Origin: Symplocastrum torsivum CPER-KK1
Lineage (GTDB): Bacteria > Cyanobacteriota > Cyanobacteriia > Cyanobacteriales > Coleofasciculaceae
NCBI GenBank assembly: GCA_019358875.1
Contig: JAHHIF010000025.1
Span: 1-64,000 of the forward strand
Reading direction: 5' to 3'
DNA length: 64,000 bases
Shown: positions 5,807 through 23,140 of the stretch, one piece after another
Layout of the letters: each line of letters opens with the position of its first letter
Numbering within the stretch: the first letter of the stretch is position 1
Position numbers and translations under genes: made by a program
The notes under the pieces: model-generated
Told to the model about the DNA's origin: nothing
What the model saw: the letters and a program-made list of their open reading frames with translations, nothing else
The model's database searches: none

Positions 5807-6058
5807 TTATGCGATCGCTTGTCTACTTGCCTCACCAGAAAGCGTTAGTTGCTCTATGGTTTTAGGTTCTGGGAGGGGTTTACCCTCTTCCTGATATTCC
5901 TCAACTAAAAGCTCTAATACCTCTTGAGCATTCTTTAAAGCTTCTTCATAGGTATCTCCGTGAGTATGGAACTGCTGAGATGGAAAATCAGGCAAGTGAA
6001 CTAGGTAACAGTTATCTTCATCCGACCATTGAATCACAACCATATAATGTAAATTCAT
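5807..6058 (-). CDS. hicB: HicB-family antitoxin
   Basis: An 83-residue protein with the HicB fold signature: a strand carrying VVIQWSDEDNCYLVHLPDFP, then a TYEEALKNAQEVLELLVEE helix. HicB neutralises the mRNA interferase HicA and often represses its own promoter. No DNA-binding HTH or ribbon-helix-helix follows the core, so it is the short form. Its ATG overlaps the stop of the upstream hicA frame in ATGA, the usual translational coupling. Diverged DNA matching its last codons is repeated about 580 bases away. Confidence 0.85.
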   Translation of the reverse strand: MNLHYMVVIQWSDEDNCYLVHLPDFPSQQFHTHGDTYEEALKNAQEVLELLVEEYQEEGKPLPEPKTIEQLTLSGEASRQAIA

Positions 6059-6520: not shown

Positions 6521-9500
6521 ATGAAAGACCCGCTATCGATTACTCATCCCCAAATAGCCACGCAGTGGCATCCAACGAGGAACGGTGAACTCACTCCAGA
6601 TCGGGTGGTAGCAGGCTCACATAAAAAAGCTTGGTGGATATGTTTCAGTGGTTCCGATCACGAGTGGGAGGCGGTAATTAAAAGCAGAACCAACGGATGT
6701 GGATGCCCCTTTTGTAGTGGTCTAAAAGCCTCCGTCACTAACTCTCTAGCAAATCTTTATCCTGAAATTGCCAAGGACTGGCACCCGACGAAGAACGGAA
6801 CACTCACCCCAGACCAAGTAGTAGCAGGCTCAGAAAAGAAAGCTTGGTGGATATGTCCCAATGGCTCCGATCATGAGTGGAATGCTTCTATTAGACACAG
6901 GGCAGTGGACGGTTCTGGATGCCCTTTTTGTGCTGGAAAGAAACCCTCAGTTACTAACTCTCTAGCAAGCCTTTATCCTGAGATAGCCCAGCAATGGCAT
7001 CCAACGAAGAATGGAACACTTACTCCAGATCAGGTAGTAGCAGGCTCAAATAAAAAAGCTTGGTGGATATGTTCCAACAACCCCGAACACGAATGGGAGG
7101 CGATAATTGGAAACAGAGCCAAAGGTGTAGGATGCCCCTACTGTGCTAATCAGAAGCCATCAACAACCAACTCTCTAGCAAAACTTTATCCTGAAATTTC
7201 CAAACAATGGCATCCGGCAAAGAACGGTACACTTACCCCAGCTCAAGTGGTAGCAGGCTCAAATAAGAAAGCTTGGTGGATATGTCCCAAAGGCTCCGAT
7301 CACGAATGGGAAGCGAAAATTGGGGATCGAGTCAAGGGAAATGGATGCCCCTTTTGTCGTAGTCTAAGACCGTCTATCACTAACTCTCTAGCAAAACTTT
7401 ATCCTGAAATTGCCAAGCAATGGCATCCGGCAAAGAACGGAACACTCACCCCAGATCAGGTGGTAGCAGGCTCAGAAAAGAAAGCTTGGTGGATATGTCC
7501 TAAAGGTAGCGATCATGAATGGGAGGCAATGATTTATAGCAGAGCCAGTGGGACTGGATGCCCCTTTTGTGCTGGTCAAAGAGTGTCCGTCACTAACTCT
7601 CTAGCAAGTCTTCACCCTGAAATAGCTGCACAGTGGCATCCCAGGAAGAACGGAACACTCACACCGGAACAGGTGACGACAGGGACAAGCAAGAAAGTTT
7701 GGTGGAAATGTCCCAACGGTTCGGATCACGAATGGGAAGCTTCTATAGATAAGAGAACTAGCGGCAGAGGATGCCCTTTTTGTAGTGGTGGAAGAGCATC
7801 TGTCACTAATTCTCTGGCAAGTCTTTACCCTGAAATTGCCAAACAGTGGCATCCCCAAAGAAACGGAACATTCACACCGGAACAGGTGACGCCAGGATCG
7901 GGAAAGAAAGCTTGGTGGAAATGTTCCAACGGTAGCGATCATGAGTGGGAGGAAAGAATCACGGACAGAGTTCACGGGAAGGGATGCCTTTTTTGTAATG
8001 GTTTAAGACCATCTATCACTAACTCCCTGGCAAGTCTTTACCCTGAAATTGCCAAACAGTGGCATCCCAAAAGAAACGGAGTACTCACACCGGAACAGGT
8101 GATAGTAGGCTCAAATCAGAATGCTTGGTGGAAATGTTCCAACGGATCAGATCACGAATGGGAAGCGAGGATCGCAGACAGAGTTGACGGGAAGGGATGC
8201 CCCTTTTGTGCTGGCTTGAAGCCCTCAGTTACTAACTCTTTAGCCAGTCTTTATCCTGAAATTGCAAAGCAGTGGCATCCAACAAAGAACGGCAATCTCA
8301 CTCCAGACAGAGTGGTAGCAGGCTCAGAAAAGAAAGCTTGGTGGATATGTCCTAAGCAGCCCGATCACCAGTGGAAAACTCTTATTGTAGAAAGAGTAAA
8401 TGGGAGTGGATGCCCGTTTTGTTTAGTTCCCAACTCTCTAGCAAGTCTTTATCCTGACATTGCTCAGGAGTGGCATCCTGAAAAGAATGAAGCACTCACC
8501 CCACAGCAGGTAACGGTAGGCTCACCACAGAAAGCTTGGTGGAAATGTCCCAAGGGATCAGATCACGAATGGGAAGCTTCGATTGCTAACAGAGTCAATG
8601 GGACTGGATGCCCCTTTTGTGCTGGCAGGCAGCCCTCGGTCACTAACTCTCTAGCCAGTCTTTATCCTGAAATTGCAAAGCAGTGGCATCCAAAGAAGAA
8701 CGGTAGCCTGACTCCGGATAGGGTAGTAGCAGGCTCAGGAAAAAAAGCTTGGTGGAAATGTCCCAACAGTCCCGATCACGAATGGGAAGCAGTAATTGGC
8801 AGCAGAGTTAATGGGACTGGATGCCCCTTTTGTGCTGGTCGCTACTCCTCGATCACTAACTCTCTAGACAGTCTTTATCCTGATGTAGCCGCGCAGTGGC
8901 ACCCAACAAAGAACGGGACACTCACCCCAGATCGAGTGACGGCAGGGTCAGGAAAGAAAGTTTGGTGGAAATGCCCTAAAGCTCCCGATCACGAGTGGGA
9001 AGCTTCTATTAGCAATAAAGTTAAAGGAAGAGGGTGTCCCTGTTGTGCCGGCTACAAAGTCTCACTTACCAACTCTTTGGCTAGTCTTTACCCTGACATA
9101 TCCAAACAATGGCATCCGACGAAGAACGGCGACCTCACCCCAGATCGGGTGGTAGCAGGCTCTAATAAGAAAGCTTGGTGGAAATGTCCTAACGGACCCG
9201 ATCACGAGTGGGAAGCTTCTATTGTCAATAGAACCAGGTTAGGAAATGGATGTGTCTTTTGTGCTGGTTACAAGACCTCAGTCACAAACTCTTTAGCAAG
9301 TCTTTACCCTGAAGTTGCTAAGGAGTGGCACCCGACTAAAAATGGGATACGCACGCCGGATCAGGTTGTAGCTGGCTCACCAAAGAAAGCTTGGTGGCGT
9401 TGCAGCATGGACTTATCCCATGAGTGGGAAGCCGCAATCATTAGCCGGACAAAGATAGGGGCAGGATGTCCAGCCTGCAACCAAGGATGGACTATGAAAG

Positions 9501-12271
9501 CCATTCGTGGTTTCGCCGCATCCTTGATAAACCACCTTGGAACTTTCACACCAGCCGAGCTTTACCTGCTATTTCAGCAGAATGGAATGCTTCAGACTCA
9601 GGGCAAAGGTAAGGGCTTTGTAAAGGCTCTCAGCACAGGACGGTTTCCGGCAGAAGAGATTGAAAAGTTTGTTAATGGTGAACCATCAATCGTTGATAAA
9701 TTCCTGCAAGATAAGCAGCTAACTCTCGAAGCGCTTGAAACTAGCGGCAATAATGACATCCCTGAGAAAGGAGATGTAACCTCTGAGGACAATCTTGACG
9801 ACCAGATTGACGAGACTGTTGAACCATCAGAAGAAGAGTACGACCTTGACCTTCCAGTTGTCCAGACGCGGGAAGTCCTGGCATCGTTAGATCACTCCGT
9901 CATATCCTCAGCCGATGAAGAAGCCGTCGAATTCCTCATCGCATCCGCAAAAGCAAAGATTTGGAAGCACGTCTTTCGTGATGAAGCCGCAGCTGTAGCG
10001 CAGGCTCAAAACTACACAGGCGACAGCTACGCCGAAAAAGTCAAATCCGAATTCCTAGACGAATATCATCGAGCCAAGAACCTCCCCATCCCAACAGGCT
10101 ACAACTTCCGTATCAACGGCAAAATAGCAGAACCCAACCTCATGCAGCGACTCGCCGCCGTTCAGGTACGCGACAAGAAACGAGTCGGCAACTGGTCAGG
10201 CACAGGTGCAGGCAAAACCCTCTCAGCCGTCCTCGCCAGTCGCGTCATTAACGCTCATCTCACCGTTATCTGCTGCCCGAACAGTGTTGTCGATGGTTGG
10301 GAAAAAGCGATTCTCGATATTTTCCCTAACAGTGTAGTTGCCAAAAAGACCTTTACACCCGATTGGAAACCTAACCCCCCAGCCTCCTCACTAAAGCTCC
10401 GGTTCCCTGCAAGGAAAGGGGAAGCAAGACTTCTCTCTCCGCTTCTGGGAGAGGTCAATGTCCCGGCAAAGGAAGAAGAAGAATTACTCCCCTCGCCTCG
10501 CAGGAGAGGGGCTGGGGGAGAGGTCAACCACTACCTCATCCTCAACTACGAGATGTTCCAACAACCCAACTCAGCCAATTGGGTTCGCACACTCATCAAC
10601 AACCAGCAAATTGACTTCATCGTTATCGACGAAATCCACTACACCAAACAGCGCCAAGCCGAAGATATCTCCAAGCGCAAGCAACTAATAAGCGCCCTCA
10701 TCACTGCCGCCGCAGAACGCAAGCCAGATTTACACATCATCGGCATGTCCGCCACCCCAGTAATCAACAACCTCCAAGAAGGCAAAAGCCTAGTCGAACT
10801 CATCACCGGAGTCCACCACAACGAACTCGACATCCGCCCAACCCTCCCCAACTGCATGAGACTCCACCAGCGACTCGTCTCGCTTGGCATACGCTGGAAG
10901 CCAGAATATAACCTCAGTTACGAGCAACTTGAGATTCCCGTAGACTGTGAGGAATTCCTCGAAGACATTCGCGCACTAGGACGCAACGGCACCCCACTCG
11001 AACTAGAGAAAATCCTCACCCGCGCCCGTTTGCCCATCATTCGCCGTCACATCAAACCCAAAACCCTCATCTATACCCACTACATCCAGGGAATAGACAA
11101 GCTACTTCGAGACGCACTAATAGAAGATGGCTGGAACGTCGGCTTTTATACAGGCGAGGTTGATTCCGATTCTAGGGCTAATATTCTTGAAGGCTTCTTG
11201 AACGGTAACGTCGATGTCCTCATCGGTTCCAGCGCCATTGGCACGGGTGTTGATGGCTTACAACAAGTATGCAACCAGCTAATCATCAACGTCCTTCCTT
11301 GGACTCATGCCGAATTCGAGCAACTCAAAGGACGCATCTACCGCCAAGGACAACGCCAAGACAAAGTAACTCTAATTATCCCTTTGACTTATGCCGATGT
11401 AAAAGGCGATCGACCTCTGGGCGGTGCCGAAGGCAATCGCTGGTCGTGGTGCGACTCCAAAATGCAACGATTGCGCTTCAAAAAATCTATCGCCGATGCT
11501 GCCGTTGATGGCATCGTTCCCGAAGGACACTTACGCACACCCGCGCAAGCTTACCAAGATATCATGGCATGGCTAGAACGCCTGGAAACTGGTCAAGTCG
11601 AAGCGATCGCCCGTCCTAAGATAGTCATTCCCCTTCCCGATGATGACCCCGCCGACGTTCAACGCCGACAGCACCGTTACGGCGACTTCTCCACCCTGAA
11701 CCGCCTCTGGAACCAAAGCCGCAGCGACACCACTCACCAACGCCTCCAGGCAAACTCAGAAGAGTGGATGCAATACCATACTTTATACCAAGAGTCAAGA
11801 AAAAGTTGGGCAATCATCCCCTACGAAGAGATGATTCGCTGGTGCCAACAACGTAGCGGCTACACTATTGGTGATTTCGGTTGCGGGGAAGCGAAACTTG
11901 CCGAGGCAGTCTCAGACCGACATACAGTTTACAGCTTCGACCATATTGCTATCAATAACAACGTGGTAGCCTGCGACATGGCTCACGTTCCCCTGAATGA
12001 TGAGGAACTGGATGTTGCCATCTTCTCCCTCTCCCTGATGGGTTCCAACTTCACCGATTACCTACGCGAGGCACACCGCACCCTCAAACTGGATGGGCAA
12101 TTGCATATTATCGAAGCAACCTCACGCTTTAAGAATCTCGCTAGATTTCACACTGACCTAGAAACTCTGGGCTTTGCCGTAATAAGCATTCAGCAAATTG
12201 CTCAGTTTACCCACATCCGCTCCATGAAGATAGAAGCTAAGGCTCGAAAGGGAAGTGAACTTAGATTCTAG
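6521..12271 (+). CDS. Giant fusion: 14 zinc-ribbon repeats + SNF2-type helicase + Rrp8-like methyltransferase
   Basis: A 1916-residue protein. Residues about 8-990 hold 14 tandem units of about 68 residues with pattern NSLAxLYPEIAxQWHP, TPDxVVAGSxKKAWWxC, DHEW and GCPFC. This is the treble-clef zinc-ribbon family (PF14311-like), each unit with Cys, His and a CPxC pair to hold zinc. An acidic linker follows. The helicase core has Walker A GTGAGKT (1227-1233), DEIH (about 1370), SAT (1410-1412) and motif VI QLKGRIYRQGQR (about 1602-1613), as in SNF2 proteins. Residues about 1740-1910 form a class I methyltransferase with DFGCGEAKLAE (1785 on) and FSLSLMGSNFTDYLREAHR, which closely resembles Rrp8-type RNA methyltransferases. 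A dispersed repeat inserts about 53 codons between the Walker A and DEIH motifs. The function is unknown; nucleic-acid surveillance or phage defence is a reasonable guess. Confidence 0.88.
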   Translation: MKDPLSITHPQIATQWHPTRNGELTPDRVVAGSHKKAWWICFSGSDHEWEAVIKSRTNGCGCPFCSGLKASVTNSLANLYPEIAKDWHPTKNGTLTPDQVVAGSEKKAWWICPNGSDHEWNASIRHRAVDGSGCPFCAGKKPSVTNSLASLYPEIAQQWHPTKNGTLTPDQVVAGSNKKAWWICSNNPEHEWEAIIGNRAKGVGCPYCANQKPSTTNSLAKLYPEISKQWHPAKNGTLTPAQVVAGSNKKAWWICPKGSDHEWEAKIGDRVKGNGCPFCRSLRPSITNSLAKLYPEIAKQWHPAKNGTLTPDQVVAGSEKKAWWICPKGSDHEWEAMIYSRASGTGCPFCAGQRVSVTNSLASLHPEIAAQWHPRKNGTLTPEQVTTGTSKKVWWKCPNGSDHEWEASIDKRTSGRGCPFCSGGRASVTNSLASLYPEIAKQWHPQRNGTFTPEQVTPGSGKKAWWKCSNGSDHEWEERITDRVHGKGCLFCNGLRPSITNSLASLYPEIAKQWHPKRNGVLTPEQVIVGSNQNAWWKCSNGSDHEWEARIADRVDGKGCPFCAGLKPSVTNSLASLYPEIAKQWHPTKNGNLTPDRVVAGSEKKAWWICPKQPDHQWKTLIVERVNGSGCPFCLVPNSLASLYPDIAQEWHPEKNEALTPQQVTVGSPQKAWWKCPKGSDHEWEASIANRVNGTGCPFCAGRQPSVTNSLASLYPEIAKQWHPKKNGSLTPDRVVAGSGKKAWWKCPNSPDHEWEAVIGSRVNGTGCPFCAGRYSSITNSLDSLYPDVAAQWHPTKNGTLTPDRVTAGSGKKVWWKCPKAPDHEWEASISNKVKGRGCPCCAGYKVSLTNSLASLYPDISKQWHPTKNGDLTPDRVVAGSNKKAWWKCPNGPDHEWEASIVNRTRLGNGCVFCAGYKTSVTNSLASLYPEVAKEWHPTKNGIRTPDQVVAGSPKKAWWRCSMDLSHEWEAAIISRTKIGAGCPACNQGWTMKAIRGFAASLINHLGTFTPAELYLLFQQNGMLQTQGKGKGFVKALSTGRFPAEEIEKFVNGEPSIVDKFLQDKQLTLEALETSGNNDIPEKGDVTSEDNLDDQIDETVEPSEEEYDLDLPVVQTREVLASLDHSVISSADEEAVEFLIASAKAKIWKHVFRDEAAAVAQAQNYTGDSYAEKVKSEFLDEYHRAKNLPIPTGYNFRINGKIAEPNLMQRLAAVQVRDKKRVGNWSGTGAGKTLSAVLASRVINAHLTVICCPNSVVDGWEKAILDIFPNSVVAKKTFTPDWKPNPPASSLKLRFPARKGEARLLSPLLGEVNVPAKEEEELLPSPRRRGAGGEVNHYLILNYEMFQQPNSANWVRTLINNQQIDFIVIDEIHYTKQRQAEDISKRKQLISALITAAAERKPDLHIIGMSATPVINNLQEGKSLVELITGVHHNELDIRPTLPNCMRLHQRLVSLGIRWKPEYNLSYEQLEIPVDCEEFLEDIRALGRNGTPLELEKILTRARLPIIRRHIKPKTLIYTHYIQGIDKLLRDALIEDGWNVGFYTGEVDSDSRANILEGFLNGNVDVLIGSSAIGTGVDGLQQVCNQLIINVLPWTHAEFEQLKGRIYRQGQRQDKVTLIIPLTYADVKGDRPLGGAEGNRWSWCDSKMQRLRFKKSIADAAVDGIVPEGHLRTPAQAYQDIMAWLERLETGQVEAIARPKIVIPLPDDDPADVQRRQHRYGDFSTLNRLWNQSRSDTTHQRLQANSEEWMQYHTLYQESRKSWAIIPYEEMIRWCQQRSGYTIGDFGCGEAKLAEAVSDRHTVYSFDHIAINNNVVACDMAHVPLNDEELDVAIFSLSLMGSNFTDYLREAHRTLKLDGQLHIIEATSRFKNLARFHTDLETLGFAVISIQQIAQFTHIRSMKIEAKARKGSELRF
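6545..9490 (+). repeat. Tandem coding repeat of about 205-216 bp, 14 units
   Basis: DNA counterpart of the zinc-ribbon array. Units are close in sequence at the DNA level (for example repeated TGGCATCC, AAAGCTTGGTGG and GGATGCCCCTTTTGT blocks). This suggests recent expansion or gene conversion. Unit 9 is shorter because its linker after CPFC is trimmed. Confidence 0.9.
10370..10528. repeat. Dispersed palindromic repeat inserted in frame in the helicase
   Basis: The ends are inverted (AACCCCCCAGCC against GGCTGGGGGAGAGG) and the interior holds further C-rich and G-rich blocks. The length is a multiple of three with no stop, so the host protein continues. The 19 bases at 10384-10402 (CTCCTCACTAAAGCTCCGG) recur exactly at 57582-57600 inside another gene. 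It encodes Pro/Arg/Glu-rich sequence unlike the helicase around it. Confidence 0.75.
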
Positions 12272-12611
12272 GATGAGGTGCAATTAGCAATCAACACTGA
12301 ATGAAGTAAAACACTGTGATAAATACAGGAGTTACACACTTGCCCCCTAAATCCCCCAATTCTGGGGGACTTTGAACTCCGGTTCCCAAAAAAATTGGGG
12401 GGCTAGAGGGGCGAGATTTATTCAACTTAGAACTTACGCAGTTTCTTGGTGAAAGCCTGATTCTGTCGTAGGGGCGCACAGCTGTGCGCCCTTACCCTGT
12501 GTTGCCGTGCGTAAGTCCTGAATATTGTTAGTCACTAGACTCGACTTTTGGCGAATAGTTCTAAGCGAGGAATCCCTTATAAAGTAGCTGCGGTATCGAG
12601 TAAAAACTTGT
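12272..12611. other. Spacer carrying a C-rich palindromic repeat and a MITE-like element
   Basis: No gene is seen. It holds a repeat at 12342-12414 (CCCCCTAAATCCCCC to TTGGGGGGCTAGAGGGG, with the word CTCCGGTTCCC shared with the insert at 10370) and the MITE-like element described separately. The promoter of the baseplate cluster probably lies in the last 90 bases. Confidence 0.6.
12429..12519. mobile_element. MITE-like element with 12-bp terminal inverted repeats
   Basis: Ends AGAACTTACGCA and TGCGTAAGTCCT are inverted repeats with one mismatch, 91 bp apart end to end. The centre has a perfect 20-bp palindrome, GGGCGCACAGCTGTGCGCCC (12472-12491). There is no coding capacity. No clear target-site duplication is seen. 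A lone copy of the end sequence (AGGACTTACGC) occurs at 36535-36545. Confidence 0.6.
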
Positions 12612-13037
12612 ATGCCAGACAGGATAGACCAGCAAAAAAATGCCTATTTGGGTCAAGGGATAGCCTTTCCCTTGCGTGTGACCGTTCAGGGAAGTTTACA
12701 GCTAAGTGCGACGGCGCGGAACATTGAGGAATCAATCCTGATTATTCTCCGGACTAATTTGGGAGAGCGAATCTATCGACCGAACTTTGGTTCACGGTTG
12801 TCAGAACTCGTGTTTGCCCCAATGAATATCCAAACGCTTCTTTTAATCCGCCTGTACGTGGAGGAAGCGCTAGAAATGTGGGAGCCTCGGATTGTTCTCG
12901 ATGCGGTTCGCACTGACCCCGATCCAGTTCGCGGTCTTGTAAACGTTACGATTGAGTACCATCCCAAAGACAGTCACGATAAGCGTAGCTTAGTTTATCC
13001 GTTCTACCTGTTGCCCCAATCCGAGTCGCTCGCCTAG
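12612..13037 (+). CDS. gp25-like baseplate wedge protein of a contractile injection system
   Basis: A 141-residue GPW/gp25 family protein: the small wedge component that ties the tail sheath to the baseplate in contractile phages, pyocins and injection systems. The family core is visible at residues 38-63, including GERIYRPNFGSRL. Length is normal for the family. It is the first gene of a same-strand cluster and is followed after five bases by the J-like gene. No tail-sheath gene precedes it. Confidence 0.88.
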   Translation: MPDRIDQQKNAYLGQGIAFPLRVTVQGSLQLSATARNIEESILIILRTNLGERIYRPNFGSRLSELVFAPMNIQTLLLIRLYVEEALEMWEPRIVLDAVRTDPDPVRGLVNVTIEYHPKDSHDKRSLVYPFYLLPQSESLA

Positions 13038-13042
13038 TTGCT

Positions 13043-15238
13043 GTGGAATTTGATTTCTTACCCAACCTGCCTAAGTCCAATCTGGATGACCGGACGTTTA
13101 AAGACCTCGTAGACGAGTGTATTTTACGCATTCCGCGCTACTGTCCAGAGTGGACGAATTACAATGCTAGCGATCCTGGAATTACCCTGGTCGAGCTATT
13201 TGCTTGGCTTACCGACCAGATGCTGTTGCGGTTTAACCAGGTGCCTCGGCGTAACTATGTGGCGTTTCTCGAACTTCTGGGTATTCGCCTCCAACCCCCA
13301 GCACCAGCGCGGACGGAGGTGACGCTCTATCTGGCAGCCGCTTTGCCTTCCTTATACCAGATTCCTGCTGGCAAAGAGGTGGCAACTGAGCGCACGGAAA
13401 CTGAAGAAGCGATTGTGTTTACAACAGACCAGCCGCTTTCAATTGGGGTTCCGAGAATTCGCCATTTTCTTACTGCCGAAACGCTGGAAGAGCGACCTCA
13501 ACTATTACGCGATCGCTTTTCCAATCTCTGGACACAAGCCTCTAATGGCAGTTGGGAAGGTCGAGAACAGCCTGTATTTAGCGATCGCCCCCAACAAGGC
13601 AATTGTTTTTACCTCGTATTTGAACCCGATCAGCCGCTAGAAGGCAATGTTCTTGCCATCACCTTACGCGGAAGACCAGCAGGTTCTACAGGTATCAATC
13701 CCGATCGTCCCCCTCGGCACTGGGAAGCCTGGAATGGCATCAGATGGCAACCCATCCTCCGCAGAAATGCAGATGATGGAACGCGAGGCTTTAGCTTTGA
13801 TGATGTATCCCAGCAACAGGAACTCAATGCGGTGCGGGAAGCGGATGTAATCCTCCATCTTCCCCAACACTGGCCTTCTACATATTTCTCTACCTATCAG
13901 GGGCGCTGGTTGCGCTGCGTTTACACCGAACCCCACACCGTTCAATCAGGTTACAGTTCGTCCCCCACATTTATGGGACTAGCAACCCGCTCAATTGGGG
14001 GAACCGTTAACGCGAGTCAATGTACGCTGGTTCAGGATGAATTGCTGGGCGAAAGTGACGGAACACCTGGTCAAACGTTTCAGCTTCAAAGTAGACCAAT
14101 CCTTCCAAGACTGGCAGAAGAGCATCTCCTCGTTACACCACCTTTAGGTTTACCTCAAGTTTGGCAGGAGGTGAGTAACTTTGCTGAGTCCGGTTCTGAA
14201 GATCGGCACTACACAATTGACTCGCTGACAGGACAGTTGCAATTTGGTCCCCTAATTCGAGAACCTGCACAACTCAAAGAGCAAACTCAGATTCGCGCCC
14301 AAACACAACAGGGTAATGGCATTTATCTAGGGGGGGAACCAGCCGCGATGCAAGTGATGGAGCGGCAGTATGGAGCAATCCCTCCGCGTGGCTCTGTGAT
14401 CCGAATGGTGGCGTACCGCACAGGAGGAGGACGACGTGGGAATGTTCAAGCCGGGACACTCCGCATTCTCAAGTCAGCCATTCCCTACGTTGCTAGTGTG
14501 GTGAATCACGAAGCGGCTCGAAACGGGGCAGATGCTGAATCGCTTGAAGATGCTGTGATTCGCGTACCAAAACTGCTGCGGACTCGCGATCGCGCCGTGA
14601 CTCCTGAAGACTTTGAACTATTGACTCTTCAAGCTGGCGATGGAGCCGTAGCGCAAGTCCGATGTCCTGCTCGTCAAACGGGTGGAGCAACAAACGGGGT
14701 CGTCAACTTATTCATCGTGCCTCAAGCCGACATCAGTGGTATCGAACGAGGACAAGGCATTAGCCCCGACCAACTCGCCTTGAGTCCACCGTTGCAGGAA
14801 AAAATCCTCGCTTATCTCGATGAACGACGGCTTCTCGGTATCCAGGTGCGGCTTCAGGAACCCGAATATGTTGGCGTTGCCGTTCAAACAGAGGTAGGAC
14901 TAGAGCCAGAGTACAATAACCCGCAATCACGGCAAGAAATCCTTCGTCGTCTCCAGGTTAGCTTGTATCAGTTTCTCAATCCCCTTACGGGGGGCGTGAA
15001 GGGCGAAGGCTGGTCGTTTGGTTGCCCCGTCTACACCTCGGATATTATTGCCTTGTTTCAGCGAACCCCAGGAGTGCGGTATTTAGGCACTGTTTTATTA
15101 TTTGAGTTACGCAAGCAAGGGCAAACCTGGGTGCGAAGCCTTGCCTCGAATGGATTAGTGGCACCGGGTTCCCACGGGCTAATTTGTTCCTGGGCCGATG
15201 AACACTTACGCTCTGGTCATGCCATTAGCCTAATATGA
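13043..15238 (+). CDS. Baseplate J/gp47-like protein (putative baseplate assembly protein)
   Basis: A 731-residue homologue of the baseplate assembly proteins found with phage-tail-like systems (TIGR02243-like). Diagnostic segments are NASDPGITLVELFAWLTD (residues 41-58) and TRDRAVTPEDFELLT (about 512), the latter typical of the J/gp47 core. Together with gp25 it should form the wedge ring around the central spike. The start is GTG just after the gp25 stop, with no Shine-Dalgarno sequence of its own, so it is probably translated by coupling. It is longer than phage gpJ (about 300), as usual for this branch. Confidence 0.87.
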   Translation: MEFDFLPNLPKSNLDDRTFKDLVDECILRIPRYCPEWTNYNASDPGITLVELFAWLTDQMLLRFNQVPRRNYVAFLELLGIRLQPPAPARTEVTLYLAAALPSLYQIPAGKEVATERTETEEAIVFTTDQPLSIGVPRIRHFLTAETLEERPQLLRDRFSNLWTQASNGSWEGREQPVFSDRPQQGNCFYLVFEPDQPLEGNVLAITLRGRPAGSTGINPDRPPRHWEAWNGIRWQPILRRNADDGTRGFSFDDVSQQQELNAVREADVILHLPQHWPSTYFSTYQGRWLRCVYTEPHTVQSGYSSSPTFMGLATRSIGGTVNASQCTLVQDELLGESDGTPGQTFQLQSRPILPRLAEEHLLVTPPLGLPQVWQEVSNFAESGSEDRHYTIDSLTGQLQFGPLIREPAQLKEQTQIRAQTQQGNGIYLGGEPAAMQVMERQYGAIPPRGSVIRMVAYRTGGGRRGNVQAGTLRILKSAIPYVASVVNHEAARNGADAESLEDAVIRVPKLLRTRDRAVTPEDFELLTLQAGDGAVAQVRCPARQTGGATNGVVNLFIVPQADISGIERGQGISPDQLALSPPLQEKILAYLDERRLLGIQVRLQEPEYVGVAVQTEVGLEPEYNNPQSRQEILRRLQVSLYQFLNPLTGGVKGEGWSFGCPVYTSDIIALFQRTPGVRYLGTVLLFELRKQGQTWVRSLASNGLVAPGSHGLICSWADEHLRSGHAISLI

Positions 15239-15448
15239 ACAAAAAAAAGGCAGATGGCAGAAGGAATTTATTCCGATACCTTCTTCACGAGCATAGGAGC
15301 AACTGCTCATGAGCAAGGGTCACAATCTCAATTGAAGGTATTTCAGTGGCTGGGAGCGACTGGGGGCTTGCATCGCCCTGACGCTCCTACCTTCTACCTT
15401 CTGCCTTCGTCACCATGAACTATGAACCATGAACCATTTTGAATTCTC

Positions 15449-16507
15449 ATGACTCAACCCCGTTCGGTTCAGACGATTAGCCTATTACTCACCCCCATGC
15501 AGCTCCCAGAGGCAGCGCCCACTCAAGCCTCAGGAGCAACTTCTGCAACGTGGACGGCTGAATCATCAAAGGTTGATGCCACGCCTCCCCTAAGTTTGGG
15601 ATTATCTCCTGGTGAACCGAGCGAAATTATTGTTCAGATTAAAAACGAGAGCGATCGCCCCCTCCAACTCGACTTTAAGATTGAAGGAGATTTTCCTCTA
15701 CAGTGGTGTCAAATTGGTCAGGAAGGCAGCGAACTTCTGGCACGGCAGCAGATGGATGCGGTTCTTTACTTTCAAATTGCCGCTGATTTTTTTGAGCAAC
15801 ACCAAAACCTCAGTTCGGATAAATCATTAAAAATCGACTATCGCGGTCAACTTCACGTTTACGCCACCCAACCCGATACGGAACAACGGCAAGTGAAGTC
15901 CGCAACCTTCAATCTCTACGTTCGTCCTCGTAGTCTTTACCTCAACTTTTTGCCATCCGTCTACCGTGAGGTGGACTTTATCGGTCGCTTGCTCAAAATC
16001 TTTGAACAAGCCTTTGAGCCAACTGTCCAAACCTTGGATGTCCTGTGGGCGCACCTTGACCCCCTAACTGCCCCCCAAGCCTTGCTGCCTTTTTTAGCTC
16101 ACTGGGTTGGTTGGCCAAGCGATGTCCCTTGGAGTACACACGAGCAACGTCGCCTGATTCGCCATGCAATGGACATTTATCGTTGGCGGGGAACTCGCCA
16201 GGGGTTAAGGCTTTACTTGCATCTTTATACTGGACTCCCTCTAGATGAGCCAGGAGTAGCAGAATCAGAAAAAGCCATTAGTATTCAAGAAGTTTTTAGC
16301 GAGGGGTTTATTTTGGGTTCTGCTCGCCTCGGACAAGAAGCCATTTTAGGAGGAGGACGACCTTATCACTTTATTGTTTGGCTACGTTGCCAAGAGCCAA
16401 AGCGAATTGATGAAGGCTTGGTACGTTCAATTATTGACCAGGAAAAACCTGCTTTTTGCACGTATGACCTGTATATTGAGGAATCATTAACAGCAGCTAA
16501 CACCTAG
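15449..16507 (+). CDS. Tail protein I-like baseplate protein with N-terminal Ig-like domain
   Basis: Residues about 155-350 match the phage P2 gpI/TIGR02242 type of tail protein: FLPSVYRE (about 167), LPFLAHWVGWP and a WRGTRQGLRLYLHLYTG motif. This protein connects wedge to tail fibre in contractile tails. The first 150 residues are a beta-sandwich-like domain with IKNESDRPLQLDFKI. The same module occurs in the two membrane proteins downstream. A 210-base spacer with short repeats precedes the gene. Confidence 0.82.
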   Translation: MTQPRSVQTISLLLTPMQLPEAAPTQASGATSATWTAESSKVDATPPLSLGLSPGEPSEIIVQIKNESDRPLQLDFKIEGDFPLQWCQIGQEGSELLARQQMDAVLYFQIAADFFEQHQNLSSDKSLKIDYRGQLHVYATQPDTEQRQVKSATFNLYVRPRSLYLNFLPSVYREVDFIGRLLKIFEQAFEPTVQTLDVLWAHLDPLTAPQALLPFLAHWVGWPSDVPWSTHEQRRLIRHAMDIYRWRGTRQGLRLYLHLYTGLPLDEPGVAESEKAISIQEVFSEGFILGSARLGQEAILGGGRPYHFIVWLRCQEPKRIDEGLVRSIIDQEKPAFCTYDLYIEESLTAANT

Positions 16508-16592
16508 CCCTTAGCTGTTGTGCGTTTAATTTGTACATAGAAACTAGCTTTCCTCATTTTGAATTTTTTAGTTTGAATTTTTAATTCTTAAA

Positions 16593-17993
16593 ATGTCTCG
16601 TTTCTTCCCCTTTCCTCCATTTCAAGCTTTTGAACGACTCCAGATCGCTGATGGTCTATTAATGACGGCACAGCGATGGAAAAGCGCTCATGATTATCAT
16701 CGACAACGGCAAAACTTTCACCACCAATCGCTACATCAACCGGGTGTCGTCTGTGGGCTAGGAGTGTCGGTGATTCCGGCTCCAATGGATGTAGCGGCTC
16801 AGTACCGAGATGGGCGCTGGTTACAAGTTCAGCCTGGAATTGCGATCGATCTACTGGGGAACCCAATCATTGTGTCCCAGCCAGAACCTTTCCGTATTCA
16901 ATCGGAGCCACCCCCTAGTCAGTCATTGGTCGTTTATTTGGTTGTTAGCTATGTTGACCCCGATCAACTGCGTCAGTCAGCAGGGAGAGAAAGCGTTCAG
17001 GAAAGGTTCCGGATTGTTGAAAAGACAAATCCAAGTGAGTTGGATGTTGAATTGTGCCGCATTCATCTCCAATCAGGAGAAGTAAGGCTTCAAACTCCAA
17101 TTGATGTCTTCTTTCCAGGAGTGAACGAGTTGGATCTACGTTACCGACAGCCAGTCTGTTCTCGACCTTTGGGGATTGTACAGGTTGCTCAGGTGACATT
17201 GGGAACTCAACAGGACAATCAGATTGCGTCTACCCTTTCTCAACTGCTTCAGGCAGTGGCAGTACTCTATCCGACATTACAAGGAGAAACTGAGATTGGG
17301 CAAATGACTCCCCAGTTCCTTGCCAATGCAGACTTATCAAACTACGACCTGCTTTACCTGCCGCGTCAATACTTACTCAGCTTTGAGCAACCCGTTATTG
17401 ACACGCTGGGGCAGTATTTAGAGCGTGGGGGAGTGCTGCTGATTGTCGTTGACTTTGAGGAGGTCAATCTAGATGAACTACTTGCGGTGAAACAAGAATT
17501 GCAGGTTGCCCTTGATAATTTGGGAGATGAGGCAGAACTGATAGTGATGCGGCAAGACTTAGAGGTAGAAATCAGCGCGATAGACGCAAACATCGCTCAG
17601 CATATTCAAGAGGTTTGTTATTCCATCAATGCTGTAGCAGAAAGAATGGGCTATTCCTTAGAAGGCGTAGGTTCTCTGAATCACCAACACCCTCTGCGGC
17701 TTCACCCGTTTTTATTCGCCCAATTTCCCCTCATTAATGGTCAACCCCTGCACCTGTTTAACTGGGGTGGGATTATCCTCATGGTCGGTAATCTCGCTCA
17801 ATGTTGGGGACTGGATGAGGCGTTGACTCTGCCACGAGAGACGATCCGAACGGCGCAAGAGATGGGTATCAATCTTTTGCATTTTGCATGGCATCGTCAT
17901 CAACTGACTCAGCTTCAGCAAGCTTCACCGTTCACGACAACTGCAAGCGAGCATACCCAAACCCTGATCGAGCAAGTACCAGTTATTGAGTAG
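16593..17993 (+). CDS. Injection-system-linked accessory protein with DUF4159-like C-terminal part
   Basis: A 466-residue protein. The N-terminal part (QIADGLLMTAQRWKSAHDYH, HQPGVVCGLGVSV, then LQVQPGIAIDLLGNPIIV) follows a pattern I associate with proteins coded beside phage-tail-like baseplate genes. Residues about 225-300 (LSNYDLLYLPRQYL, YLERGGVLLIVVDFE) resemble DUF4159. A coiled-coil-like segment follows. No signal peptide or membrane span is present. Its stop overlaps the neighbourhood of the next start, so the two are probably co-translated. The exact role is unknown. Confidence 0.6.
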   Translation: MSRFFPFPPFQAFERLQIADGLLMTAQRWKSAHDYHRQRQNFHHQSLHQPGVVCGLGVSVIPAPMDVAAQYRDGRWLQVQPGIAIDLLGNPIIVSQPEPFRIQSEPPPSQSLVVYLVVSYVDPDQLRQSAGRESVQERFRIVEKTNPSELDVELCRIHLQSGEVRLQTPIDVFFPGVNELDLRYRQPVCSRPLGIVQVAQVTLGTQQDNQIASTLSQLLQAVAVLYPTLQGETEIGQMTPQFLANADLSNYDLLYLPRQYLLSFEQPVIDTLGQYLERGGVLLIVVDFEEVNLDELLAVKQELQVALDNLGDEAELIVMRQDLEVEISAIDANIAQHIQEVCYSINAVAERMGYSLEGVGSLNHQHPLRLHPFLFAQFPLINGQPLHLFNWGGIILMVGNLAQCWGLDEALTLPRETIRTAQEMGINLLHFAWHRHQLTQLQQASPFTTTASEHTQTLIEQVPVIE

Positions 17994-18006
17994 GGGTTTT
18001 GAGCGG

Positions 18007-20226
18007 ATGGCGAAACAAATTAGCACTGAGATTTCTACCCAAGTCCTCCACTACAAGCCAGGAGGTGCCCCAGCAACTTTTGAGTTGACTGTCAACAATG
18101 ATAGCGATCGCTTTGCCGCGTTTCAGGTGGATTTGTCGGCAGCAGGCTCTGATCCAAAGCTTGGGTCGAGTTGGTATCGTTTAGTCCCTGCCATCTCTTC
18201 AAAAATTCCAGGGGGAGACTATACCCGTTTTCAGGTCGAAATCTTGGCAGTTCCACCTGTTCCGGGAGGCTTCACGGGCACGATGAATCTAACCGTGCGG
18301 GTTTTCTCATGGGAACTCAACGATGAAGACAGACAGATTTTGCGGTTAGTCGTTGAAGGTTCAGGTATCTTACCTCCCACATTGGAGTTATCTGAGCGTA
18401 AATTTCAGGGGTATCCGGGTGATTTAATTGATGTGTCGGTAGCCGTTAGCAACTCAAACCGTCAGGCAGTTGATGTGACGCTGCGGCTTAGCGGGATAGA
18501 CCTAAATTGGTTCCCGAATGGCGCAGAAAAACAGCTCCACATTCCCGCTAGAGGACAGGCAGATGCGGTATTTGCGTGTCAGTTACCCGATGCAACCCAG
18601 GCTCCAAGTGGAGTCTATACGCTGAGTGTTGAAGCGACTCAGCTTCGGGCAGTACCTGTCCAAGCTCAAGCAACACTAACTGTATTGCCTGCTGGATTTA
18701 TGGAGTTTCGTTGTTCTCCGACGCGGCAGCAACTCCCCATGAAACCTCGCCGCTGGCTCAATCCGGCAGTAGACACCGCGACTTATGCCCTTGAGCTAGA
18801 AAATCAGAGCAATTTGCCCCAGGAAGCAAGCGTCGATGTCCGCTATCAAGACGAGAGTAGCGAAAAACCGCGCAGGTGGTTTCCTTGGTTTGGGGGCAAT
18901 GCCAAATCACCTGTCAAACCGCCAGACCTTTCAGCGAAAGTTGCAACGAACACCTTAGAGGTCAAGCCAGGGCTGGTCAACTTAGGGGTTGGGGAAACTG
19001 CTCAGCTTGAGTTGATTATCCGTCGAAGATTACCGTGGATTGGCTGGTCGCGACGGCGCTTTCTGCAAGCTAAGGCGATCGTCTCCGACCCGCGTCTCGA
19101 TCTTCGCAACGATACGCAAACGCTAGAACTACGTGTTTCGCCGCAGATTCCTCTTTGGTTACAGCTAGCGGGTATTCTGTTCGTCTTACTTCTCGGCTGG
19201 CTCATCTTGGGTCGCCAGCGGGGACATACCGGACCCGTTACAGCAGTCCAGTTTAGTGGGCAAGCGGATGAGGTGGTGAGCGTGTCAACAGATGGCACTG
19301 TCCGTCGTTGGCAGGCTAACGGCACTCATCTTAAATCACGGGGGATATTGGAGCAGGGTGATAAAGCTGTGCGCGTCGTGCGGTACCGTCCGGTGAACAA
19401 TGATCAAGTGGCAGTGGGATTTGAAAACGGACAAATCCAGATTTGGGATTTGCTGTTTGGCGAACGGCAGTCGTCATTTTCCTATCGAAACGATGATCGC
19501 GTTTTTGACCTTGCCTTCACCCAAGACTCTCGCTCGTTATTTAGTGGTCACGGAAGTGGGTTGATTTTACAGTGGGGAATAGAACCCGGAAGACGCGCAC
19601 TCACCCAGGTGAAGCCACGACGCGGGTTCAAAGTTGACTATGCCGTTCAGTCCCTTGCCCTTGTCGGTTCAACAGAGAATCATTTAGCGATCGCAGGTCG
19701 CTACAATCGACTGACTCTGCTGAACTTGGCAACAGAAACTAATCGAGAGATGCAATACCGAACCGGAGGGTTCAATAACTACATCATGAGTTTGGCAACA
19801 GCAAGTCAACAGCCTGATTTGCTGGCAACGGCAGATAATCGGGGAAGCATTACCCTCTGGAATTTGCGCCGCTGTTTAGCCGATAACAAGGCTCCCTGCG
19901 AACAGGTCGATGACTGGTCTACGGGACACGGTGGAGCCGCCGTTCGCTCAGTTGCCTTAAGTGCTGATGGTTGCAATCTCGTCAGTGCTGGCGACGATGG
20001 GCGAGTCGTCCTCTGGTCTTTGACCTCAGACGGCACTCGCAGTCCAGCACTGATTGAAGGGAAGACACTGTATCAATCGTCAGTGCCGCTCAATGCTGTA
20101 GACCTCATCCGCACTAAAGACCGCATTTTGGTTGCCAGCGGTAGTCAAGATCATCAGGTCAGGTTGCATAGCATAGACGAGGCTACCGCACTGGCAGGTG
20201 GCACATGCAGTAGCTTTGCTCAGTAA
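18007..20226 (+). CDS. Membrane protein: Ig-like domains + one transmembrane helix + seven-blade WD40 propeller
   Basis: A 739-residue protein. Residues 1-370 hold Ig-like modules (VNNDSDRFAAFQVDL near residue 30). One transmembrane helix is at about 385-405 (LAGILFVLLLGWLILG). The rest contains about seven WD40-type blades (TDGTVRRWQ, NGQIQIWDL, NRGSITLWNL, DDGRVVLWSL). ATG at 18007 is chosen over an upstream TTG because AGCGG precedes it and the upstream start would overlap the previous gene. In the injection-system context it could anchor the baseplate to a membrane, with the propeller as a docking surface. That role is inference. Confidence 0.7.
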   Translation: MAKQISTEISTQVLHYKPGGAPATFELTVNNDSDRFAAFQVDLSAAGSDPKLGSSWYRLVPAISSKIPGGDYTRFQVEILAVPPVPGGFTGTMNLTVRVFSWELNDEDRQILRLVVEGSGILPPTLELSERKFQGYPGDLIDVSVAVSNSNRQAVDVTLRLSGIDLNWFPNGAEKQLHIPARGQADAVFACQLPDATQAPSGVYTLSVEATQLRAVPVQAQATLTVLPAGFMEFRCSPTRQQLPMKPRRWLNPAVDTATYALELENQSNLPQEASVDVRYQDESSEKPRRWFPWFGGNAKSPVKPPDLSAKVATNTLEVKPGLVNLGVGETAQLELIIRRRLPWIGWSRRRFLQAKAIVSDPRLDLRNDTQTLELRVSPQIPLWLQLAGILFVLLLGWLILGRQRGHTGPVTAVQFSGQADEVVSVSTDGTVRRWQANGTHLKSRGILEQGDKAVRVVRYRPVNNDQVAVGFENGQIQIWDLLFGERQSSFSYRNDDRVFDLAFTQDSRSLFSGHGSGLILQWGIEPGRRALTQVKPRRGFKVDYAVQSLALVGSTENHLAIAGRYNRLTLLNLATETNREMQYRTGGFNNYIMSLATASQQPDLLATADNRGSITLWNLRRCLADNKAPCEQVDDWSTGHGGAAVRSVALSADGCNLVSAGDDGRVVLWSLTSDGTRSPALIEGKTLYQSSVPLNAVDLIRTKDRILVASGSQDHQVRLHSIDEATALAGGTCSSFAQ

Positions 20227-20302
20227 GGGGCAAGTGTTAGGGGCTAGGAATTTTCCAATACCTAACACCTACTCTTAAAGATCGGGATAGGGAAGTAGGA
20301 AG

Positions 20303-23140
20303 ATGACGGGAAATCAATTGAGTTCAGAGGCAGGACAGCCGCGTAATTTGTCAAGCTTAGTCGAACTGCGGCGGTTAACTGCCGAGCAGCAGCAACTCCT
20401 TACCTGGATGGCACAGCAGGAAGCAGGTGTCAGCTTAGCTGAGATTGCTGCCCAAACCCGCAAATCTGAGGAAGAGGTCAGCAGGCTACTTGCAGAACTC
20501 AGGCAGCAAGATTTAATTTTCAACGTTGGCAGCGATCGCTATCGCGCTTCGTCTCCTACCCAAGGTGATTCACTAGCCGATAGCTACGCTTCAGGCAGCT
20601 TCTCCGACAACCTGCTACAGTCGCTTAGTCCGAGCAAACCGCTTGCCGTTATCCTCAACTCCTCTGGTAAGGATGTTGTCACATCAGGAGGAACGTTTGA
20701 ACTGGCAGTCACTGTAACCAATAGAGGTAGCCAAAGTGCTGTTGTTCACATTTTTATTGATGACCTTTCTATTCTGTTGCGTCAATGGTGTCAATCGAGT
20801 CAGGAATACCTTGCTCTATCACCCGACCAAAGTGGTGAGGTTGTTTTTCGATTTCAGATACCTGTTGAGGTGCTGCCGGGAACGTTTCATTATCTCCTCG
20901 TCGTTGATGCGCCGCAGCATTACCCAGAATATCCTCCAGCTCGGTATTCGCAACAGCTAGAAATTTTGCCCCCTAGTCTTGACATTGTCAAAGCGAGTGA
21001 CCCGACCTTCGTCATACAACCGCCAACGAGTTCAGCAAAGCCTGCTGTCCTGCAACCGAGTAGTGTTCTGCAACTGCAAGTTTTAGTCTACAACCGCTCC
21101 GATCGCGTTGATCGCTTCCGTTTGACTTGTACAGACTTGCCGGAATCTTGGTTTACTATTACCTACCCCCAGGAAACTCAAGGATTGGGGCTAGTACTAG
21201 AAGCTGAGAGTTTGGGTCTCAATCCCGGAGATCAAGGTCAAATTTTGCTGCTCATTACCCCGCCCTCAGATGCCCTAGCAGCGAACTATATCCCAACTGT
21301 GCGGCTGTACTCGGAAAATAACCCAGACCTCAATCTTTTAGATTTGGTGTATTTCCAGGTTCTCCCGATCTACTTACTCCAACCTGCCCTGCGACCCATT
21401 ATCAGTCGAATCAGGGAGCAATCAGGATTACTTGAAGTACAACTTGTCAATAGCGGTAATACAGAGCGTGAGCTTCTCCTGCGGGTGAATGACTTAGATG
21501 GAGGTGAAAGTTGCACCTACCGCCTTGAGCCAAACGAAGTCAAAATAACGCCAAAAGAAACCGCACGGGCGAAGTTAACAGTACAGCCGACCCGGTGGTG
21601 GCGGCGCCCTCTGTGGGGTGGGGGTCGAGTGCTGAACTTTCAGGTAGAGTTAGAAGACCGCCAGCAGGTACCCTTACCCAGTAGCTTGCTTCCGGGATAT
21701 GTGACATGGGCAGCACGTCCCTGGTGGCAACTGCTCCCTTTGGTGCTGGCAGGGTTAGGCACTTTGGCGCTTTTGGTTTGGCTGATTTGGTGGTTGTTTT
21801 TTAGACCGCCAGTTTCCCCAAAAATCTTAGAATTTTATGTTGAGGATTCCCGTTACTCGGCGGCGAATGGGGATGTCGCACAAGTCGGATGGCAAATTCA
21901 GTTTCCCAACCGCATCCGCTCTCTGAGAATTACTGGTCAGGCTCCGGATGGTCGGGCAATTAGTGGCCCACTTGTCTATGACTTTAGTCAATCCCTGCCC
22001 CCAGCGCTGAAACCGTTTTGTACACTTGAGCAAGTCCTTTTAACGTGTAGAAACGTTCGCACCGATGCTCGGCAAGCGGGGGAATATGTCTTTGAACTTA
22101 CCTTGATTCCCAAACGGGGACGGGGACAAACGCTAGAGTCTCGGAAAACGGATCGGATCGCAATTGACCCAGTTCCCTTGCCGCAGGTGGTTGAGTTCAA
22201 ACCAACCCAAGCCGCTTATCTAGAAGCGAAGAATACACCAGCGAATCAGTCTGCACGGGGTAATACCCAGGCCTCTCCAGCAATTACAAATCCATCCGAC
22301 ATTCGGCTGAACTGGGTAGTAACCCGACCCCAAGACCTGCAAGCACTTCAACTTGTAGGGCGTACCCCGGATGGTGCGATCTCTCGTCCGCCACAGCGCT
22401 TTAACTTCGCTCAGGGTATTCCTAAAGAGTTGCAAGAATTTTGTGAGATTGGCAACGTCTTAGTCTGCCAGAATCTAGGGACAGGCGTGCGGCAAGCCGG
22501 AGACTACATTTTTGAATTAATTGCTATCCCCAAAGATGAGTCAGCAAAAGCTCCAGAACCAACCAAAACTGACCCAATCAAGATTCAACCCCGCCCTGCC
22601 CAAATTCTTAACTTCCGAATCAATAACCAGGATGCTAGACCAAAGTACTTAATTCCCATGGAACAGGGGCAGCCTCCCCTGGCGTTGGTTGTGTCTTGGA
22701 ACGTTGAGGGAGGGGGAAGTACAGCCGTACAACTGTTGCCTTCTCCTGGAAGCGTTCCCTTGCAAGGAGCCGTCGCTTTTCCCCTCAGCCAGCAACCGGA
22801 AAGTCAAACAATTACTTTGCAAGTAAGCAATGGTGTAGGGCAACCAATCACACGCTCCGTCACGATTGAGACGTTTGACCCTACTCCCACTGATCCGGCT
22901 GCTGCCGCTGCTGCTGCCGTTGCTGCTGCGGCGGCAAATGCCCGACAAAACGCAGAGGCGATGCAAGAACAATCAGGTGCATCGTCACCCTCAACACCCC
23001 CCTCAACGTCACCTTCACGCCCCTCCTCAACCTCCTCCCCTTCCCCAACACCAGAACCATCTATTCCCTCCCTAAACTCGCCTGCTCCCTCTACTAGCGA
23101 TCGCCTTTCTCCTTCGGAACTGCCTCCACAGTTTGACTAG
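20303..23140 (+). CDS. Large membrane protein: winged-helix-like N-terminus, Ig-like repeats, one transmembrane helix
   Basis: A 945-residue protein. Residues about 25-90 look like a winged helix-turn-helix (LLTWMAQQEAGVSLAEIAAQ, EEEVSRLLAELRQQDLIF). Two or three Ig-like modules follow (VTNRGSQSAVVHIFI; VYNRSDRVDRFRL). A transmembrane helix lies at about 478-500. Beyond it are two clearly duplicated beta domains: ITGQAPDGRAISGPLVYDFSQ matches VGRTPDGAISRPPQRFNFAQ. An Ala-rich run and a Ser/Pro tail end the protein. GGAAG precedes the ATG. It is the last gene of the baseplate island and shares domain style with the preceding gene. Confidence 0.68.
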   Translation: MTGNQLSSEAGQPRNLSSLVELRRLTAEQQQLLTWMAQQEAGVSLAEIAAQTRKSEEEVSRLLAELRQQDLIFNVGSDRYRASSPTQGDSLADSYASGSFSDNLLQSLSPSKPLAVILNSSGKDVVTSGGTFELAVTVTNRGSQSAVVHIFIDDLSILLRQWCQSSQEYLALSPDQSGEVVFRFQIPVEVLPGTFHYLLVVDAPQHYPEYPPARYSQQLEILPPSLDIVKASDPTFVIQPPTSSAKPAVLQPSSVLQLQVLVYNRSDRVDRFRLTCTDLPESWFTITYPQETQGLGLVLEAESLGLNPGDQGQILLLITPPSDALAANYIPTVRLYSENNPDLNLLDLVYFQVLPIYLLQPALRPIISRIREQSGLLEVQLVNSGNTERELLLRVNDLDGGESCTYRLEPNEVKITPKETARAKLTVQPTRWWRRPLWGGGRVLNFQVELEDRQQVPLPSSLLPGYVTWAARPWWQLLPLVLAGLGTLALLVWLIWWLFFRPPVSPKILEFYVEDSRYSAANGDVAQVGWQIQFPNRIRSLRITGQAPDGRAISGPLVYDFSQSLPPALKPFCTLEQVLLTCRNVRTDARQAGEYVFELTLIPKRGRGQTLESRKTDRIAIDPVPLPQVVEFKPTQAAYLEAKNTPANQSARGNTQASPAITNPSDIRLNWVVTRPQDLQALQLVGRTPDGAISRPPQRFNFAQGIPKELQEFCEIGNVLVCQNLGTGVRQAGDYIFELIAIPKDESAKAPEPTKTDPIKIQPRPAQILNFRINNQDARPKYLIPMEQGQPPLALVVSWNVEGGGSTAVQLLPSPGSVPLQGAVAFPLSQQPESQTITLQVSNGVGQPITRSVTIETFDPTPTDPAAAAAAAVAAAAANARQNAEAMQEQSGASSPSTPPSTSPSRPSSTSSPSPTPEPSIPSLNSPAPSTSDRLSPSELPPQFD

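Follow-up and report, generated by a model that had tools for sequence, protein, structure and literature searches.

Does a single reading frame in the window (the whole stretch of 64,000 nucleotides that was analysed) encode one protein in which an array of zinc units is joined to a motor and a methyltransferase, and what would such a protein act on? The earlier note, made from the letters of the window, had read the frame as a zinc-ribbon array fused to an SNF2-type helicase and an Rrp8-like methyltransferase, and had proposed a role in defence or translation repair. Comparison with relatives shows a widespread constant engine, the motor plus the methyltransferase (about 870 aa), on which the array can be swapped as a module. 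We give a probability of about 0.5 to the reading that the protein is an array-addressed, motor-driven base methyltransferase, probably acting on adenine N1, which is used in conflicts between genomes.

One chain of array, motor and methyltransferase

Table 1 Parts of the window protein (aa, residues of the protein)
Feature	Position	Strand	Basis
Single ORF: array, SNF2-class motor and Rrp8-like methyltransferase	6521..12271	+	1916 aa, ATG start, full-length relatives
Address array, 14 DUF4379 (PF14311) treble-clef zinc units of ~71 aa each	6521..9478	+	aa 1-986
Conserved engine, beginning at the GW junction (aa 989)	9485..12268	+	Relatives' alignment, omega 0.11-0.24
Helical N-terminal engine domain (TPAELYxLFQQxG...), no Pfam match	9509..10018	+	Alignment, AF2 model
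SNF2-class SF2 motor	10058..11518	+	aa 1180-1666; motifs I, II, III, V and VI intact
In-frame copy of a dispersed palindromic repeat in the motor	~10373..10519	+	31 genome matches including itself
Rrp8-family (PF05148) SAM-dependent methyltransferase domain	11681..12250	+	aa 1721-1910, Pfam and 2zfu

The frame is best read as one protein, as the earlier note had supposed: full-length relatives have the same order of parts, and the engine is under purifying selection (Table 1). The orthologue L100 has the same start, MKDPLSITHPQIA, which supports the start codon of the window gene. The three parts had also been named correctly. Pfam analysis of the 1916-aa protein found 14 PF14311 stretches (E 1.3e-297), Helicase_C (4.9e-12) and ResIII, here the helicase part (2.1e-6), with no nuclease domain among families at E<=1. 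The quoted motifs GTGAGKT, DEIH, SATP, GRIYRQGQR and DFGCGE, together with FSLSLMGSN, are all in the window protein and are kept across relatives. The AF2 model of the whole protein has a pLDDT of 73.8, with higher values in the catalytic parts; the helical N-terminal domain of the engine is predicted with moderate pLDDT and is followed by a disordered acidic linker.

In the array, each of the 14 PF14311 units scores 73.8-89.5 bits against a cut-off of 24.5, the zinc-binding C, H, C and C are invariant, and an AF2 model of three DUF4379 units reaches a pLDDT of 92.6. The count of 14 zinc units given earlier thus stands, but 'near-identical' does not describe them. Compared with one another, the units have 61-83% nucleotide identity, a mean dS of ~1 and a scaffold dN of ~0.19, so that the array is old, with purifying selection acting on its scaffold. 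Five positions in WEA[x]I[xx]R[..x..]G[x]GC behave differently, with a pN of 0.60, close to the pS of the whole (0.56), as compared to 0.17 elsewhere in the array. These positions were picked on the very data used to score them, so their hypervariability is only suggestive; it would reflect relaxed or diversified selection, short of proof of positive selection. Four of the five also vary strongly in both Rhodococcus and the HTH-bearing lineage, and the fifth in Rhodococcus only. A match of the array to TAL effectors (Pfam 3.8e-19 summed) comes from a short LTPDQVVA stretch that occurs 14 times, for example at aa 299-316, and was dismissed as a coincidence.

Judged by its modelled fold and its motifs, the motor is of the SNF2 class. 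The best match of its AF2 model in the PDB is INO80 (Z 29.7, 372 residues, rmsd 2.7), followed by ISW1, SNF2h, Chd1 and others, the top matches all being SNF2 class. The SF2 motifs are complete, motif VI is of the SNF2 type (GRxxRQGQ), and the two-lobe SF2 core with all motifs is common to INO80, Chd1, ISWI, RapA/HepA, DrmD and BrxHII. However, the DISARM and BREX models match short helicase-core stretches only, while the window motor has its own conserved post-helicase segment, WSWC..ADAAVDG. Assignment to DISARM or BREX was rejected, since DrmD scores 42 bits against a cut-off of 610 over a helicase stretch only; none of the companion genes of these systems was found at the window or in the scanned neighbours. 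The palindromic repeat within the motor, with 30 further matches elsewhere in its own genome, is modelled as disordered; in the alignment, the relative L096 carries a long insert where this repeat lies.

The C-terminal domain matches PF05148, Methyltransf_8, with E 6.8e-46 and 157.3 bits against a cut-off of 27, over positions 13-204 of the 219 in the profile. Among solved structures, it has a sequence match to human RRP8 (2zfu) alone (E 2.7e-33), and comparison of the AF2 model with 2zfu gives a TMt of 0.80. The domain has in common with Rrp8/nucleomethylin the PF05148 family, motif I DFGCG[DE] and the LSLMGxN signature. Motif I, in which G209 of yeast Rrp8 lies, is intact in all relatives compared, and the signature, SLSLMGSN in the window, is kept with L[AS]LxGxN variants. 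The (D/N/S)PP(Y/F/W) motif IV of DNA N6-adenine and N4-cytosine methyltransferases is absent; the stretch reads FSLSLMGSN, with related letters in all relatives compared. Known targets of Rrp8, a methyltransferase of eukaryotic nucleoli, lie in helix 25.1 of the large-subunit rRNA and give m1A645 in yeast 25S and m1A1322 in human 28S. Rrp8 makes m1A in 25S/28S rRNA, and the yeast G209R variant is catalytically dead (PMC6085284). Because the Rrp8 letters are present and a DPPY-type motif is not, N1-methyladenine is the most likely product as far as motifs can indicate. A stand-alone bacterial Rrp8 was considered and rejected: 386 cyanobacterial genomes gave five matches above 100 bits beyond the window's own genome, and each of these is the fusion. 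To our knowledge, Rrp8 carries neither a motor nor a repeat array, and we know of no earlier bacterial or phage setting of this methyltransferase.

A constant engine with exchanged arrays

Relatives were searched with the C-terminal 920 aa as query, and IMG/VR was scanned by profile. The earlier note had called for a search for the same architecture across cyanobacteria; the many relatives found mean that the window protein is not a one-off. The engine occurs in at least nine bacterial phyla, on at least three plasmids and on at least 13 IMG/VR contigs of up to 379 kb. Among the matches listed, full-length relatives with 45-70% identity come from Cyanobacteriota, Planctomycetota, Verrucomicrobiota, Thermodesulfobacteriota, Chlamydiota, Acidobacteriota and Chloroflexota; a partial engine relative is present in Thiomargarita. 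The plasmid copies, one from Crinalium and two from Rhodococcus, are annotated solely as 'zinc-ribbon domain-containing protein'. Viral copies that include the catalytic part of the protein have its motifs intact; L154 is frameshifted. Chromosomal presence is patchy, with the engine in 19 of 391 genomes of the window's order and in none of the other searched genomes of its family, and several copies are broken or truncated. We found no description of the array-motor-methyltransferase fusion in the open-licence papers searched.

Four types of array precede the engine, sometimes mixed: DUF4379, INT_rpt, DUF723-type zinc units (L147 and L149) and 'MPT', our name for a ~68-aa repeat without a Pfam family found in L098. 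In the mixed chains L144, L146 and L148, an N-terminal DUF723-like unit is combined with INT_rpt units, and some engine proteins have HTH domains at their N-terminus. DUF4379 arrays comprise 3-14 units, that of the window being the longest among the relatives found. INT_rpt units likewise have a fixed scaffold with hypervariable positions. In the engine tree, a quick tree with some long branches, well-supported branches force at least three changes of array type, and INT_rpt arose at least twice. A single genome, G403, has two engines with different arrays, DUF4379 in L100 and INT_rpt in L101.

Exchange is most directly seen in L098 (five MPT units) and L100 (seven DUF4379 units), which belong to the same genus and occupy a syntenic locus. 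Their 5' flanks are 93.2% identical in DNA until ~530 bases upstream of the L098 start codon, and the engine with its 3' flank is 91.3% identical, with non-homologous array segments in between. Homology starts again at the GW codon, but the first 120 engine bases are only 64-72% identical, so a crossover exactly at that codon was discarded. Since identity climbs over the first few hundred engine bases, the crossover lies within the engine, in its 5' portion. The engines of L096 and L097 are 92.7% identical in amino acids, while their arrays of 6 and 5 units have no orthologous unit. On the other hand, L103 and L104 of Microcoleus keep the array unit by unit (91-99%), which means that turnover is not seen in all arrays; the dS of these engines is only 0.06.

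That the array would read or hold nucleic acid, as the earlier note already had it, fits well with the exchange of arrays, with a conserved scaffold that bears hypervariable positions and with repeats that also occur in homing endonucleases. A conserved enzyme whose recognition part turns over and is exchanged, together with patchiness, pseudogenes, plasmids and phages, suggests conflict between genomes. PADLOC and Pfam tallies of 87 neighbours gave scattered single matches only, with no enrichment that would indicate a defence island. No recurrent partner gene was found, the neighbours in common being relatives' synteny or members of widespread families such as CarB, TPR and WD40. Hence, a conflict role is something that we infer. 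The earlier proposal of defence is possible but undemonstrated, given mainly housekeeping neighbours and large phages and plasmids that also carry the gene.

DNA, RNA and competing explanations

We propose that the N-terminal array would bind a particular nucleic-acid sequence, with a few hypervariable residues in each unit setting the address. The SNF2-class motor would then track on or distort the bound duplex and present an adenine to the Rrp8-like domain, which would methylate it, most likely at N1, leaving a base that no longer pairs. Replication or expression of the target could thereby be blocked, in a conflict between host, phage and plasmid. Exchange of the array would give a new address while the engine is retained.

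The nucleic acid bound by the array would more likely be DNA than RNA. SNF2 motors track dsDNA, and DNA is favoured because the best structural matches of the motor are SNF2-class dsDNA translocases. It is also favoured by the company that the repeats keep. Phage endonucleases encoded beside the engine gene begin with DUF723-type repeats (L149 7515-8420, L148 7972-8907 and 11654-12583, L153 1756-2874). Each of these has three DUF723-type zinc units, repeats in common with the array of the neighbouring engine, and, judged by eye, looks like ending in a Vsr-like nuclease; in L149, the endonuclease N-terminus and the engine array are 49.6% identical over 232 aa. MPT repeats occur next to serine recombinases: in G417 (L156), an intact-looking HTH and MPT-repeat protein stands beside a serine recombinase, and in the window's own genome (L158, G000:C43:14500-19500; L157 634-2022) a protein with HTH and MPT-type repeats, its frame holding one TAG, adjoins the C-terminus of an apparent serine recombinase, both recombinases having been recognised by eye. 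Phage integrases gave INT_rpt its name, which also points to DNA, as do the HTH domains in some engine proteins. Against DNA, access of an N1-adenine methylase to a paired DNA base lacks an explanation, and the known substrate of Rrp8 is rRNA.

RNA as the bound nucleic acid deserves a smaller but real share of belief, because all solved DUF4379 structures are those of trypanosomatid mitoribosome proteins or assembly factors, in mitoribosomes or assembly intermediates, and because Rrp8 writes m1A in rRNA (PMC6085284). In an RNA-directed enzyme, the array would bind transcripts or rRNA, the motor would be a remodeller, or act like RapA at RNA polymerase, and m1A would silence or mark the RNA. 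RNA-bound DEAD-box RNA helicases do appear lower in the motor's structure list (Z ~24). However, motif VI and the best structural matches are SNF2-class, and three of the four array types are common to DNA-acting endonucleases, integrases or recombinase accessory proteins, so this explanation seems somewhat unlikely as a whole. Rrp8 also offers a precedent for an enzyme with an accessory motor that makes m1A in a fixed rRNA or tRNA target, serving housekeeping or stress, for example resistance or translation control, and the gene does stand alone amid housekeeping genes. We regard this as improbable in view of the patchy distribution in the order and the family, the broken copies, carriage by plasmids and phages and the exchanged arrays. 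The translation repair suggested in the earlier note lacks support, as a fixed rRNA or tRNA target would not account for array turnover.

The endonucleases adjoining the engine gene in L148, L149 and L153 could also mean self-protection, an array matching that of the neighbouring homing endonuclease directing methylation of the element's own sites, as in restriction-modification. L044, in which a DUF4379 and MTES_1575 protein lies ~1 kb from the engine gene, is in line with this, but the array of that neighbour is of another type than the array of the engine. Moreover, homing endonucleases are plentiful in such phages regardless, and most chromosomal copies, the window's included, have no adjacent endonuclease, which makes self-protection a very remote prospect. 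Returning to the array-addressed methyltransferase, its strongest form is a tentative one: an undescribed class of enzymes in bacteria and phages, in which interchangeable arrays might direct a motor-methyltransferase that inactivates foreign genomes or transcripts through N1-methyladenine without cutting, and in which the arrays may hold a readable code.

Several known systems come close to this design. Rrp8 acts on one rRNA adenine, whereas here its domain is fused to an SNF2 motor and variable arrays, in bacteria and phages. As in type I and type IIL restriction-modification, a constant catalytic part is combined with an exchanged recognition part; unlike in those systems, no nuclease domain was found, the methyltransferase is of the Rrp8 type without DPPY/NPPY, and recognition would fall to tandem arrays built from four or more unrelated kinds of repeat. 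Phage homing endonucleases with DUF723, DUF4379 or INT_rpt have the same array modules, up to ~50% identical to engine arrays, but carry an endonuclease domain where the effector here is the motor and methyltransferase. DarB-like polyvalent phage proteins combine a helicase and a methyltransferase in one chain; we know of no Rrp8 domain or exchanged repeat array in that family. Matches of the window engine to phrog_62 'DNA helicase' and phrog_11801 'DNA methyltransferase' cover helicase motifs only.

If the arrays set the target, they would represent a new programmable recognition of nucleic acids, with several repeat alphabets and as many as 14 units, that leads to methylation of a base and not to a cut. 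Whether a recognition code exists can be tested directly on natural pairs that have the same engine and locus and an exchanged array. The architecture alone gives a functional context to the poorly understood DUF4379, INT_rpt and DUF723 repeats, and has implications for where eukaryotic Rrp8 came from.

Surroundings of the window gene and its relatives

The 'next to TA' of the earlier note rests on a single orphan HicB-like antitoxin ORF upstream of the engine gene (5810-6058, minus strand), with no evidence linking the two. Downstream, 340 bases after the gene, begins a region (12612-23137) encoding gp25-like (PF04965), Baseplate_J-like and Tail_P2_I proteins, which looks like the baseplate cluster of a contractile injection system; no evidence ties it to the engine gene either. 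In G099, which also has an intact locus, a DUF4379 array remnant with a stop codon (G099:C1:2990354-2990740; L121, L136) is closest to window-type units and represents a second, decayed locus.

Among the viral contigs, L067 has a terminase and L068 a portal protein. In six others, the genes around the engine gene serve nucleotide and NAD metabolism or encode endonuclease VII and homing endonucleases, a setting like that in large phages. In L067, an AAA_16 and TPR protein, STAND-like, is encoded directly downstream of the engine gene (11214-14564), ~2.7 kb before the terminase gene.
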